A stretch of DNA of 64,000 bases, taken from the NCBI GenBank assembly GCA_022449455.1, contig JAKUPL010000003.1, positions 124,001-188,000 on the forward strand. The letters are read 5' to 3'. Position 1 is the first letter of the stretch. Every line of letters starts with the position of its first letter. The position numbers and the translations under genes were made by a program. Below are positions 44,138 to 47,629 of this stretch, piece by piece. Origin of the DNA: Alcanivorax sp. Its GTDB lineage: Bacteria > Pseudomonadota > Gammaproteobacteria > Pseudomonadales > Alcanivoracaceae. The notes beneath the pieces were generated by a model. It did no database searches. It was not told the DNA's origin and worked only from the letters and a program-made list of their open reading frames with translations.

Positions 44138-45184
44138 CTAACCCTCCCACAAATGCATCTGACCGGCCAGCCCGGGCGGACGGAAGGCGCTGGTGTCCAG
44201 CGTAAAGCTCTCCCGGGGCGCCAGGCCGGCGCGCTGGCAGGCGGTCTGGAAGCGCCGCGACAGCAACTGCGCCCAGGGGCCCTGGCCCCGGTGCCGGTGG
44301 TGCCAGCGGCTGTCGTAGGTGGCGCCACCGTGCAGCTCGCGCACCGTGGCCATCACCTTGCCGGCCCGGTCCGGGTAGTGGGTGGCCAGCCACTCCTCCC
44401 ACAGCGGCCCCAGTTCGTGGGGCAGGCGCAGGATCACGTAGCCGGCGCTGCGGGCCCCGGCGGCGGCCACCTGCTCGACGATGTCTTCCAATTCATGATC
44501 GTTGATGAACGGAATCAGCGGCGCCACCAGCACCGTCACCGGCACCCCGGCCCGGGCCAGCTCACGCACCGTGCGCAGCCGCTCGCGGCCGCCGCTGGCG
44601 CGGGGCTCCAACTGGCCCTTGAGGCGGTTGTCCAGGGTGGTCACCGACACCGCCACCGAGGCCCGGCCCTCCCGGGCCATGGGCCCGATCAGGTCCAGAT
44701 CGCGCAGCACCAGGGCGCTTTTGGTGATCAGACTGAACGGGTGCCGGCATTCACTGAGCACCTGCAGCACCTCGCGGGTGAGGCGCCGTTCCCGCTCCAC
44801 CGGCTGGTAGGGATCGGTGGCGGTGCCGATCACGATCGGCCGGCACCGGTAGCCGGGTTTGCGCAGGGTATCGCGCAGCACCTCGGCGGCGTTGTCCTTG
44901 CAGAAGATTTCGCTTTCGAAATCCTGCCCCGGGGAGAGGTCCACGTAGGCGTGGTTGGGGCGGGCGAAACAGTAGATGCAGCCATGCTCACAGCCCCGGT
45001 AGGGGTTGAGGCTGGTATCGAAGTGCAGGTCCGGGCTCTGATTGCGGGTCAGGATCGACCGGGCGATTTCGCGATGGTAACGGCTGGGCCGGGCCGCCGC
45101 CGGTTCGTCGTGCTCGCTGTGAATCACCGCGAAGCGCCCCCGACGCTGGTTCAGGGTGCCCCGATTGGACGCGCGGGTGGCCAT
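44138..45184 (-). CDS. PA0069-type radical SAM protein, SOS-regulated
   Basis: This 348-residue radical SAM enzyme has the cluster motif CEHGCIYC (Cys65, Cys69, Cys72; Cx3Cx2C) within NPYRGCEHGCIYCFARPNH and a conserved ending SFTLDTSAFRPPGLAGQMHL. It is of the PA0069 family, related to the SplB-like radical SAM group; as I recall, PA0069 itself belongs to the Pseudomonas LexA regulon. Here a perfect-form LexA box overlaps its promoter (45202-45217). A DNA-damage role is likely, the reaction unknown. The ATG at 45184 has GGAGAG upstream. Confidence 0.9.
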   Translation of the reverse strand: MATRASNRGTLNQRRGRFAVIHSEHDEPAAARPSRYHREIARSILTRNQSPDLHFDTSLNPYRGCEHGCIYCFARPNHAYVDLSPGQDFESEIFCKDNAAEVLRDTLRKPGYRCRPIVIGTATDPYQPVERERRLTREVLQVLSECRHPFSLITKSALVLRDLDLIGPMAREGRASVAVSVTTLDNRLKGQLEPRASGGRERLRTVRELARAGVPVTVLVAPLIPFINDHELEDIVEQVAAAGARSAGYVILRLPHELGPLWEEWLATHYPDRAGKVMATVRELHGGATYDSRWHHRHRGQGPWAQLLSRRFQTACQRAGLAPRESFTLDTSAFRPPGLAGQMHLWEG

Positions 45185-45201
45185 GGGGATGCTCTCCGAT
45201 A

Positions 45202-45217
45202 CTGTTCTTATGGACAG
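45202..45217 (-). promoter_or_regulatory. LexA (SOS) box
   Basis: CTGT-N8-ACAG (CTGTTCTTATGGACAG on the + strand) matches the gammaproteobacterial LexA consensus, and flanking ATA/TAT extend the palindrome to 45199-45220. It starts 18 bp upstream of the radical SAM start codon and overlaps the promoter -10. Confidence 0.88.
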
Positions 45218-45243
45218 TATAGTGAGCGCGGGCGGGACTGCAA
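45216..45243 (-). promoter_or_regulatory. sigma-70 promoter of the radical SAM gene
   Basis: On the - strand TTGCAG (45243-45238), a 16-bp spacer and TATACT (45221-45216) form a good -35/-10 pair. The -10 overlaps the LexA box, so repressor binding would exclude RNA polymerase. Confidence 0.7.
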
Positions 45244-45247
45244 TGTC

Positions 45248-45559
45248 TCAGTGCGGCCGTACCGGCTGCACCAGAACCCAGGGTTTGACCACCAGGGTCC
45301 ACATGTCCTGGCCGGCGTCGAACCAGCCGCGCGCCTGCTCATCGCTGACCGCGTCCACCCGGCCCTGGGCGCGCCACTGGCGGATCTGCTCGACCCGGTC
45401 CTCGGCGAACGCCACCGCCACCTCGATCAGGTCCAGGTCACCGGCCACCGCCACGGTTTGGCCGCGGGCGAAGAAGGGCTGCAGCTCGCGCCAGTCGGCG
45501 CGGGCGGTTTCCTGGTTGAGTTTGGCTTTGAGTATCGCGGTGTCGTCGGGTTCGGCCAT
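45248..45559 (-). CDS. DUF2288 family protein
   Basis: This 103-residue soluble protein matches the DUF2288 family (ILKAKLNQETARADWRELQP, FFARGQTVAVAGDLDLIEVAVAFAED, here key segments). The function is unknown. The ATG at 45559 has GGAGGACCC directly upstream; an in-frame ATG at 45613 is less likely. It is co-directional with the radical SAM gene, but that gene has its own LexA-controlled promoter in between. Confidence 0.85.
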   Translation of the reverse strand: MAEPDDTAILKAKLNQETARADWRELQPFFARGQTVAVAGDLDLIEVAVAFAEDRVEQIRQWRAQGRVDAVSDEQARGWFDAGQDMWTLVVKPWVLVQPVRPH

Positions 45560-45640
45560 GGGTCCTCCGGATTCAGGGGACGCCATTATGGCGAAAAGCA
45601 TGGTTTCTCGCACTTTCAGCGGATTCTCTCCAGCCGGGGC

Positions 45641-45751
45641 GCGGCTCAGGGCGCGACGCCCTTCCGGGAACGCCGTGAACCCGTCCCTGGGGGCTCCCTT
45701 TCGAACGTCCTGTTCTCAAGGGTCCCGGAAGGGCGTCGCGCCCTGAGCCGC
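45641..45751 (+). repeat. hairpin element copy 1 (29-bp arms, 53-nt loop)
   Basis: The arms 45641-45669 and 45723-45751 are perfect 29-bp inverted repeats ending in CTTCCGGGA/TCCCGGAAG. The 53-nt loop contains CCGTCCCTGGGGGCTCCC and an internal small stem GAAC-GTCCT-GTTC, and ends AAGGG. It lies in the 645-bp gap 45560-46204, which holds no convincing gene. Copy 2, inverted, is at 45911-46005. Confidence 0.85.
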
Positions 45752-45910
45752 TGAGCAGTGAACCTCGGCGCCAAGGGACGCTTCAGGTGCCTGGCGGTGC
45801 CAATATCGGAGGTTGCCGGCGCAAAGATGGGCTCTACGGAGCCGCCACCTCTATCCCTCCTGGTTCATCGTTGTCCGTACCCGGAACGGTTCCGCTACCT
45901 CGGAGCGGAG

Positions 45911-46005
45911 CTGTGTGGGTGCCTTCCGGGACCCTTTTTGGCAAGGATGCCAAAAACGGGAGCGCCCAGGGACGGCTTGAGCGATCCCGGAAGGCACCCA
46001 CGCAG
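45911..46005 (-). repeat. hairpin element copy 2 (21-bp arms, 53-nt loop)
   Basis: The arms 45911-45931 and 45985-46005 pair over 21 positions with one G-T wobble, and share the inner CCTTCCGGGA with copy 1 while the outer part differs. Read on the - strand, the 53-nt loop contains CCGTCCCTGGGCGCTCCC (one mismatch to copy 1), an internal 9-bp stem TTTTTGGCA/TGCCAAAAA with a TCCT loop, and ends AAGGG. Smaller palindromes (CGGAAC-G-GTTCCG at 45882-45894) adjoin it. Confidence 0.85.
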
Positions 46006-46070
46006 ATCCGCGTCCCGGATAGAGATCTCCCGCATCGATTTCCCGCCAAAGCGCGATGAACCAAAAGAAA

Positions 46071-46090
46071 GCCCGCCGGGGAGGGCGGGC
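46071..46090. terminator. GC hairpin upstream of the PhoD-like gene end
   Basis: GCCCGCC-GGGGAG-GGCGGGC is a perfect 7-6-7 hairpin. It lies about 115 bp beyond the stop of the - strand PhoD-like gene (46205). The bases on its left, read on the - strand, are TTTCTTTTGG, so it can act as an intrinsic terminator for that gene. Confidence 0.55.
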
Positions 46091-46204
46091 GGCTGTAGTG
46101 GGCCGAAAAGGGACGTCCGTGTCCTTTAGCGTCCGTGCAACGACCACTCTAGGGCAGCGCCGGGGCCGTGGGGATCGGAGATCTGCCATGATCTTTGTAG
46201 GACA

Positions 46205-47629
46205 TCAGCCATCCCACCGGATTTCCCGACTCGCCGCCGGCACCGGTTCGCCGTCCCGGTTGAACAGCTCCAGGCGCGCGCCCTCCCCGTCCAGGGTCAC
46301 CCGCGAAAACGCATCGCGGCTGTACACCTCGCCGGGCACGCTGACCCGCCCCAGGGACGGCTTCCACAGCCCGGCCAGGCGATGATCGTCACGGATCATC
46401 GGCCGGTACCAACGGAACGCCATCAGCGCCGTGGGCCAGAACAGGCCGGAACAGATCCAGGCGTGGATCGGCGGCTTGCCGGCGCCGTCCAGGCGCGCGT
46501 ACAGGGACGCGTGCACGTCGCCGCTGAGCACCAGCAGGCGCCGGGCGCGGCTGGCGCGCATGGCGTCGATCAGGCGCTGGCGCTGAGCGCGGAAGCCCTC
46601 CCAGCTGTCCTCGCCCCGGAACGGCCAGCGCTGCTCCGGCAGCAGCGGCACCGACGACACCAGACACTTGATGCGGTCCGGGCCGTCGTTGAGCCAGGCC
46701 ACCACCGCCGCCTCTTGCTCCCGGGACATGATGTTGCGCTGCCAGGGCCAGCGGCTCAGCGCCCGCTCGGTGCGCAGGTCCATCAGGAAGAAGTCGGCGC
46801 CGCCCCAGCGGTAGCTGTACCAAAGCCGCTCCGGGTCGCGGTCCAGGCGACGGCCCTCGGCGTTGAGCGGCACCGCCGGCGAGTGCGAGGCCTGGTAGAT
46901 TTGGTAGGCCTTCATGGCCGCCGGGTACTTGCTGGTCCACAGGTCCGGGTTGGCGCGCGCCGGCCAGTTGTTCTCGATCTCGTGGTCGTCGAGGATCATA
47001 TGGTGGTTGTGGTGGGCCATCAGTCGGCGAATATGAGGCTGGCCGAAGCTCTGCCGGTAAAGATCGAAATACTGCTGCTGGGAGGACGCCGCGCCCACCC
47101 GCCAGGTGGCATCGGCGTACACCTGATCGCCGGCGTAGAGCACGAAGTCGGTGTGCCGCTCCCGGGCCTGGTCGGCCATCACCGCGAACACCCGGTCGGC
47201 GCGGTCGTCCTCCACCTGGTGGTCCAGGCCGGTGAAGCGGTAGCAGCAGGAGCCGAACAGAAAGCTCACCGGTTCCTGATCGGAGGCCGGCGCGGTGCGG
47301 AAATGCCCGTCCGTGGCCCGGTGCCAGTCCAGTGCCGTGTCCACCGTCCGCGGGTCGTCCACGTAGCCGGCCTGGTACTGGTAGCGGGTGCCCGGCGTCA
47401 GCTCGCGCAGCACCACCACGCCACTGCTGTCGAAGTTGCCGTTGATGCGGAAATGGCGCGGGCCGAGCCAGCGGGTCTCGCCGACCGCCCGCCAGCGGAT
47501 GCGGCCGTGGGGCGCTTTGCGCCCGGCGCCCAGGGCGCCGCCGGGCATGGCGCCGAAGATGCGAATGCTGGTGCGGTCGGCGCTGCCGGCCAGTGGGCCC
47601 ACCGCGAACGGCGCCACGGTTACGGTCAT
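46205..47629 (-). CDS. PhoD-like metallophosphatase (alkaline phosphatase D family)
   Basis: This 474-residue protein has the PhoD layout: an N-terminal beta domain (WRAVGETRWL, LTPGTRYQYQAGYVDD), then the metallophosphatase core with FGSCCYR, LYAGDQVYADATW, MILDDHEIENNW, DLRTERA and VLSGDVHASLY. The metal ligands Asp, Asp, Asn/Asp and His are present. There is no signal peptide, unlike secreted PhoD, so it may act in the cytosol. GGAAGG precedes the ATG. A second, divergent PhoD-like gene is at 52655. Confidence 0.88.
   Translation of the reverse strand: MTVTVAPFAVGPLAGSADRTSIRIFGAMPGGALGAGRKAPHGRIRWRAVGETRWLGPRHFRINGNFDSSGVVVLRELTPGTRYQYQAGYVDDPRTVDTALDWHRATDGHFRTAPASDQEPVSFLFGSCCYRFTGLDHQVEDDRADRVFAVMADQARERHTDFVLYAGDQVYADATWRVGAASSQQQYFDLYRQSFGQPHIRRLMAHHNHHMILDDHEIENNWPARANPDLWTSKYPAAMKAYQIYQASHSPAVPLNAEGRRLDRDPERLWYSYRWGGADFFLMDLRTERALSRWPWQRNIMSREQEAAVVAWLNDGPDRIKCLVSSVPLLPEQRWPFRGEDSWEGFRAQRQRLIDAMRASRARRLLVLSGDVHASLYARLDGAGKPPIHAWICSGLFWPTALMAFRWYRPMIRDDHRLAGLWKPSLGRVSVPGEVYSRDAFSRVTLDGEGARLELFNRDGEPVPAASREIRWDG

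Follow-up and report, generated by a model that had tools for sequence, protein, structure and literature searches.

A mobile hairpin family of Gammaproteobacteria with loops that resemble CsrA sites

What are the two hairpins that face each other in an intergenic region of Alcanivorax, with a common core and stems that differ in sequence? The window, by which we mean the whole stretch of DNA analysed, comprises 64,000 nucleotides of an Alcanivorax sp. contig (GenBank assembly GCA_022449455.1, JAKUPL010000003.1, positions 124,001 to 188,000). A first-pass annotation had left the choice between a structured RNA, a recombination or protein-binding site and a mobile palindromic repeat. Our analysis supports a structured RNA, a protein-binding site and a mobile repeat all together: the structure covaries and its wobble bias lies on one strand, the loop pattern fits the site of a known RNA-binding protein (there are no binding data), and an empty site and a target duplication reveal mobility. 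The best explanation of the pair is that it represents one copy of a gammaproteobacterial mobile, MITE-like family. We lean, with some reserve, towards the view that the transcripts of this family mimic bivalent CsrA sites, and that the YPAL/RU-2 repeats are its Yersinia relative.

In Gammaproteobacteria, CsrA/RsmA governs metabolism, motility and lifestyle and is titrated by dedicated sRNAs. If this view is true, tens of CsrA sites per genome are missing from current models (the host has 22 elements with two arms each), and YPAL, a repeat class described in 2006-2007, gains a function.

Two hairpins in one mobile unit

The pair is intergenic, with a PhoD-like phosphatase gene on one side and a DUF2288 gene on the other, both on the minus strand. 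The features of the locus are given below, where R2 designates a broader strand-specific covariance model built from 51 diverse elements (alignment A3).

45248-45559, minus strand: flanking gene, DUF2288 (Pfam PF10052)
45594-45598, no strand: left target-site duplication AAAAG; AAAAG stands on both sides of the insert, and a single AAAAG in the empty-site relative G002
45599-46062, no strand: complete mobile unit of 464 bp, two hairpins and a spacer, present in G000 and G003; its ends, CATGGTTTCTCGCAC.../...GCGCGATGAACC, are imperfect inverted repeats
45641-45751, minus strand: hairpin element 1; predicted RNA from 45751 to 45641; R2 match at 45656-45736, minus strand, 66.8 bits
45672-45694, minus strand: element 1 arm 1, from the fold; hexaloop AGGGAC (45683-45688) with C-G closing
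45696-45722, minus strand: element 1 arm 2, from the fold; loop AGGAC (45707-45711), a 5-nt GGA loop
45752-45904, no strand: spacer of 153 bp between both predicted 5' ends; no sigma-70-like promoter found in it
45905-46011, plus strand: hairpin element 2; predicted RNA from 45905 to 46011; R2 match at 45918-45998, plus strand, 58.4 bits
45943-45948, plus strand: element 2 arm 2 loop AAGGAU, with C and G on its sides in the sequence; in the minimum-energy fold the outer A-U forms an extra pair
45968-45973, plus strand: element 2 arm 1 motif AGGGAC, its GGA partly paired in the minimum-energy fold
46063-46067, no strand: right target-site duplication AAAAG
46071-46090, minus strand: intrinsic-terminator-like hairpin whose T-tract is the insertion target (1 found vs 0.8 expected from shuffles)
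46205-47629, minus strand: flanking gene, PhoD-like phosphatase (Pfam PF09423)

Two hairpins in opposite orientation had been reported here, and both are present (45641-45751 and 45905-46011), with inverted arms at 45641-45680/45712-45751 in element 1 and at 45905-45931/45985-46011 in element 2. The 53-nt loops described for them were recovered as an inner distance of 53 nt in each (locus L004), and the common core CCGTCCCTGGGNGCTCCC occurs once per strand. Compared with dinucleotide shuffles, under RNA and DNA parameters and on either strand, the hairpins fold with z scores of -9.1 to -10.8, and 0 of 200 shuffles did as well. The TCCT apical loops noted earlier do exist on the strand that was read then, but their meaning was missed, as they are GGA loops on the complement; the functional strand is most likely the one opposite to that first read. 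Rfam models gave, for 45000-46500 of the window (E<=1), only microRNA-precursor families, a long-hairpin effect that is meaningless in a bacterium.

The extent first assigned to the feature, 45641-46005, does hold the hairpins, but the mobile unit is wider. In G002, whose flank is 96% identical, the intergenic region runs straight through a single AAAAG and thus offers the empty site, whereas the host reads AAAAG, 464 bp, AAAAG, a 5-bp target duplication. It follows from the empty site and the duplication that a single 464-bp unit contains both hairpins. The insertion target was the T-tract of the intrinsic-terminator-like hairpin (46090-46071). The copy in G003 is bordered by AAAAG and AAAAA; from the other 11 genomes of the genus the unit is absent at this site, and G009 bears a single hairpin elsewhere in the same intergenic gap. 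Judged as a MITE, the unit has its target-site duplication, and its end repeats are only partly alike.

A second site, with a single hairpin, is occupied in 5 of 13 genomes (G000, G002 where it is truncated at the end of a contig, G011, G012 and G003) and empty in 8. The G003 copy there is disrupted and no longer found by R2. In G004 and G010, where this site is empty, a divergent pair lies a few hundred bases off, beyond the neighbouring gene. By eye, the hairpin element of L308, the G003 counterpart of the L002 site, is interrupted by another REP-like repeat.

Copies, covariation and the constrained strand

The first-pass annotation had proposed a covariance-model search and stated that the absence of further copies in this or related genomes, or copies whose stems do not covary, would refute it. 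Neither refutation succeeded. The core was found with at most 2 mismatches in 15 places of the host genome, 14 of which are true copies by inspection; the remaining match, L015, lacks a stem and was excluded. R1, a covariance model built on these 14 copies, gave matches at E<=0.01 in 19 of the 38 genomes searched, including 13/13 of the genus with the host counted. With R2, the host has 22 strong places (E<=1.1e-9) and one weak (E 6.4e-4). Across the class, 47 of the 229 genomes drawn, host included, have R2 matches; this search used stricter filters and counted at most 20 matches per genome. In a phylum-wide sample R2 matched 18/249 genomes, all 18 labelled as the same class or nearer, the sample's share of genomes from outside the class not being given. 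A pattern scan of named genomes yielded at least 119 stretches. Among the matches listed are Stenotrophomonas, Xanthomonas, Marinobacter, Rheinheimera, Microbulbifer, methanotrophs, Yersinia, Sodalis and others.

Two IMG/VR contigs classed as viral (L253 and L254) also bear the element, L254 being 98.2% identical to Yersinia RU-2. On two other loci (L187 698-6377 and L204 631-5301), two opposed core copies stand about 4.7-5.7 kb apart and could bound a larger mobile segment.

The head-to-head arrangement of the window is that of a clear majority. Among the matches listed in 121 named and viral loci, R2 neighbours within 500 bp are divergent, with predicted 5' ends facing each other, in 28 cases, convergent in 6 and tandem in 5. 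In Xanthomonas, three of the six convergent cases stand between two divergent pairs, and three of the five tandem cases belong to one four-copy array (L151). We rely on this model-based count; under stricter detection the neighbours were 18 divergent, 1 convergent and 0 tandem. That four-copy array (L151 3119-3738), from a Saccharophagus MAG, has its four R2 matches on the same strand at about 180-bp spacing. G003 harbours six same-strand copies with a 227-bp period and 12 GGA arms (L301 888-2252, G003:C1), possibly a CsrB-like multi-site RNA. The repeats of the G003 array contain REP-like GGCTGAAGCCGCTCCTACA units. A promoter search found no promoter-like sequence at the window pair or at the six-copy array.

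Where gene calls were clean, 25/63 elements lay between convergent genes, although these calls are weak. A cis leader as the main role was considered and dropped, divergent genes not being favoured (7/63); this count is itself unreliable, since 68/131 elements overlapped an ORF call.

Each element consists of an outer stem followed by two short arms at a three-way junction. The compensatory change that had been claimed for the stems of this pair is real and not peculiar to it. Double changes affect 17/32 predicted pairs among the 14 host copies. In A3, 89.8% of cells pair vs 59.5% when shuffled and at most 49% with partners slid, and double-change cells number 456 vs 149 in shuffles. The A3 elements were picked partly for good stems and GGA loops, which favours the percentage paired. 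Free of such selection, since the search pattern permitted all 16 inner-letter combinations, is the pairing of the arm 1 inner triplets in 128/131 places (among the matches listed). Orthologous copies at the second site also display paired changes by eye (arm 1 CCC/GGG vs TAC/GTA, stem T-A vs C-G), and in the copies of relatives 3028/3083 stem cells are Watson-Crick despite wide divergence among copies. Some inner stem columns of A3 hold A.C cells, which we attribute to off-register alignment without having checked them cell by cell.

The strand under constraint can be recognised from the mismatches that the stems tolerate. Over 96 representatives, and with mismatches scored without favouring any type, the GGA strand carries 89 G.U vs 8 A.C (p=2e-18); the same mismatches read as 89 A.C/C.A and 8 G.T/T.G on the strand of the first-pass annotation. 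Taken element by element, the split is 48 to 6, and isolated mismatches alone, with three Watson-Crick pairs on each side, give 47 G.U vs 7 A.C. Most of this bias is due to the distant set (86 vs 8); the 19 relatives' representatives add 3 vs 0. The count used 113/115 relatives' rows and 93/131 pattern places (among the matches listed), rows being dropped for want of a stem of 15 bp and a score of 10; its label 'genus' covers mostly same-genus copies, plus other genera or families (L058-L062). Such a one-sided wobble bias identifies the complement of the strand first read as the molecule under constraint, and the evidence for constraint on the GGA strand is strong.

After G.U, the next mismatches on the GGA strand of the outer stems are G.A (32) and G.G (19), above A.A (8), U.U (4), C.U (4) and C.C (2). 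The G.A excess perhaps corresponds to the tandem G.A noted for TwoAYGGAY.

GGA loops, CsrA and the rival readings

On this strand GGA loops cap both arms. Arm 2 was left unconstrained by the search pattern and had a stem of at least 3 in 76/77 distant representatives. Of these 76, 60 have hexaloops that read A (58), a variable position (T 30, G 24, A 6), G (60), G (59), A (58) and a last position with T 47, C 9, A 2 and G 2, closed by C-G in 54/60; the other 16 have 5-nt loops, with GGA in 13. Hexaloops occur in 9 of the 19 relatives' representatives (A 8, G 8, G 9 and A 8 of 9), the other 10 having 5-nt loops. The scoring gave a half-point preference to loop size 6. In unconstrained minimum-energy folds the commonest arm 2 loop has 4 nt (44/77 distant representatives), because the outer A-U of the loop pairs; GGA lies in the first hairpin loop of 66/77 distant and 18/19 relatives' representatives and is absent from it in 11/77 and 1/19. 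The GGA-GGA spacing is 20-22 nt in 51/51 A3 elements; the elements of A3 had been restricted to an inner length of 51-54, a range that covers 219/228 detected elements.

This pattern matches the CsrA/RsmE site, for which the accessible part of one review gives an ANGGAN hexaloop with variable N, a SELEX consensus RUACARGGAUGU and dual-site bridging over 10-63 nt with an optimum above 18 nt (PMC7652899). The family meets both points, with ANGGAN hairpin loops and two sites more than 18 nt apart. The copies of the window are an imperfect fit: element 1 has a 5-nt loop in arm 2, and in arm 1 of element 2 the GGA is partly paired. Binding extends to GGA loops of 5 nt, as far as the available text of PMC3791407 goes. 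A point against the match is the mean length of the arm 2 stems, 7 bp; the SELEX selected short unstable stems, according to the same portion of PMC7652899. The host encodes csrA, and 51/52 residues compared of its CsrA are identical to the solved CsrA 7yr6. We consider that CsrA as the partner best accounts for the loop, the spacing and the closing pair, its binding being inferred without binding data.

The csrA gene was found in 43/47 element-bearing genomes, the other 4 being 67-98% complete, and its association with the elements is not significant (1/36 vs 21/162, p=0.14); co-occurrence did not discriminate.

In the mechanism that we propose, each hairpin would act as RNA on the GGA strand, a long stem of free sequence leading to two short arms at a three-way junction, and its ANGGAN loops, with GGAs about 20 nt apart, would offer the geometry that one CsrA/RsmA dimer clamps. 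The unit landed in a terminator T-tract at the only site known to the base, and might be transcribed by read-through or from a promoter not found here. Each GGA-strand transcript would then tie up one CsrA dimer or bring CsrA to the mRNA that carries it. That the element is transcribed in the host, that CsrA binds it and that titration results are inferences, in the absence of binding or expression data for the host, and titration as the function is a hypothesis. This reading is weakened by the missing binding and promoter evidence, by the strand on which Ysr224 is annotated, by the imperfect loops of the two window copies and by the four element-bearing genomes in which csrA was not detected. 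More tentatively, and with the odds rather against it, the family could be a selfish decoy system: a transposable family would spread bivalent CsrA sites, mostly head-to-head and sometimes in arrays, copy number and local transcription would tune the pool of free regulator, and the element would gain from CsrA control or be domesticated into it.

Other readings account for part of these observations. REP hairpins are single-stranded DNA substrates of RAYT, and the present hairpins could similarly be single-stranded substrates of a transposase that contacts the conserved loops and handles the GGA strand in transposition. A mobile unit with a target-site duplication and facing hairpins near both ends is compatible with this, and a folded DNA strand could also yield a G.T bias. 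We nevertheless judge it unlikely, because the loops vary at just those two positions that are N in the CsrA site, the 5-bp duplication and the end repeats suggest (by inference) cut-and-paste of duplex ends, and transcripts of the Yersinia relatives are reported in the accessible parts of PMC12112432 and PMC9029176. That the hairpins serve in cis as stabilisers or processing signals of 3'-UTR or intergenic RNA, as proposed for YPAL, with GGA loops that bind something else or nothing, also receives little credence from us. The adjoining terminator and the 25/63 elements between convergent genes (weak gene calls) speak for it, as does the expression of YPAL together with upstream genes, whose stability it might affect according to the portion of a review available (PMC2229807); a pure stabiliser, however, needs neither ANGGAN loops nor a near-fixed spacing.

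The near-perfect stems of the relatives (3028/3083 cells Watson-Crick in widely different copies) could also betray a selfish palindromic repeat without RNA function, in which apparent covariation results from hairpin-templated correction of one arm by the other. Such copying of arms would leave no 89:8 wobble bias on one strand, a bias that rests on the distant set, nor is it expected that loops stay conserved while the arm stems turn over, and we hold this reading to be very improbable. As the sole cause of the covariation, hairpin-templated correction is rejected on account of the strand bias.

Relation to known systems

The reading that we prefer, a mobile family of bivalent CsrA-site mimics, borders on several known systems. 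REP/REPIN are dispersed intergenic palindromes like the present elements and are paired in inverted orientation; to our knowledge they have no three-way junction with GGA loops. CsrB/RsmZ-type sRNAs share with the elements several ANGGA hairpins that sequester CsrA, but they are dedicated genes and not mobile dispersed repeats. REP elements measure 20-40 bp in the source text available. CsrR1/CsrR2 of Alcanivorax dieselolei have been proposed to titrate CsrA there, according to an accessible section of PMC9788540.

TwoAYGGAY (RF01731; PMC2864571) comprises, like the elements, two hairpins whose loops read AYGGAY, under an external stem that is poorly conserved, and was proposed in 2014 to bind CsrA (PMC4333381); the parts of these sources available do not describe it as a mobile repeat. 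The elements likewise set two neighbouring hairpins with ANGGAY-type loops on an outer stem, and of the 10 RF01731 loci fetched 7 coincide with same-strand R2 matches, one of which is weak. In the host genome the RF01731 model matches nothing at E<=1 and does not reach its gathering cut-off; it exceeds this cut-off in 4/38 genomes searched, and its best match among relatives (L255, 58 bits) is missed by R2.

The Yersinia sRNA Ysr224 (Rfam RF02770) scores 83-134 bits in Sodalis, Yersinia and a viral contig, overlapping R2 matches, but is annotated on the strand opposite to the GGA strand; it has no match at E<=1 in 45000-46500 of the window. Ysr224 is expressed, and its copies have different expression profiles, in the available part of PMC12112432, expression being mentioned also in that of PMC9029176. 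At L247 7888-7994 and L254 6178-6284, the strand of the Ysr224 model is opposite to the wobble-favoured one.

The literature searched, which leaves out most subscription journals, gave no match to the core letters and no paper on YPAL together with CsrA. Queries for CsrA with 'extragenic palindromic' returned nothing on these elements, judging by titles and abstract starts, and those for MITE with CsrA/RsmA met only Rfam 12, the available text of which treats plant MITEs and CsrA motif annotation separately.

The YPAL/RU-2 repeats of Yersinia were reportedly described by De Gregorio in 2006, a work known to us via later papers. They resemble the window element in their three-way-junction hairpin, GGA loops and conserved core, and RU-2/YPAL of Y. 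pestis is printed on the GGA strand in the part of PMC2759123 available. Over 167 nt, the RU-2 sequence printed there shares 98.2% identity with the Y. similis locus L247, where R2 finds the copy with 72.1 bits. YPAL is mobile, with target duplications and adjoining dyad symmetries (PMC2229807, partial text), and the window unit matches it in mobility, AAAAG duplication and an adjacent terminator-like hairpin. It differs in that YPAL/RU-2 is about 168 bp long with one hairpin, against 464 bp with two, and by eye the ends differ. The accessible descriptions present YPAL/RU-2 as a DNA repeat of Yersinia and Erwinia and mention neither head-to-head pairs nor CsrA. The first-pass annotation mentioned similar palindromic repeats of other gammaproteobacteria and knew of no assigned function for this one, but it missed this likeness. 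The window unit is YPAL-like without being YPAL in the strict sense, and the shared architecture is secure; as far as the literature searched goes, what is new here is the unification of these systems, the assignment of the strand, the head-to-head layout and the hypothesis of decoys.
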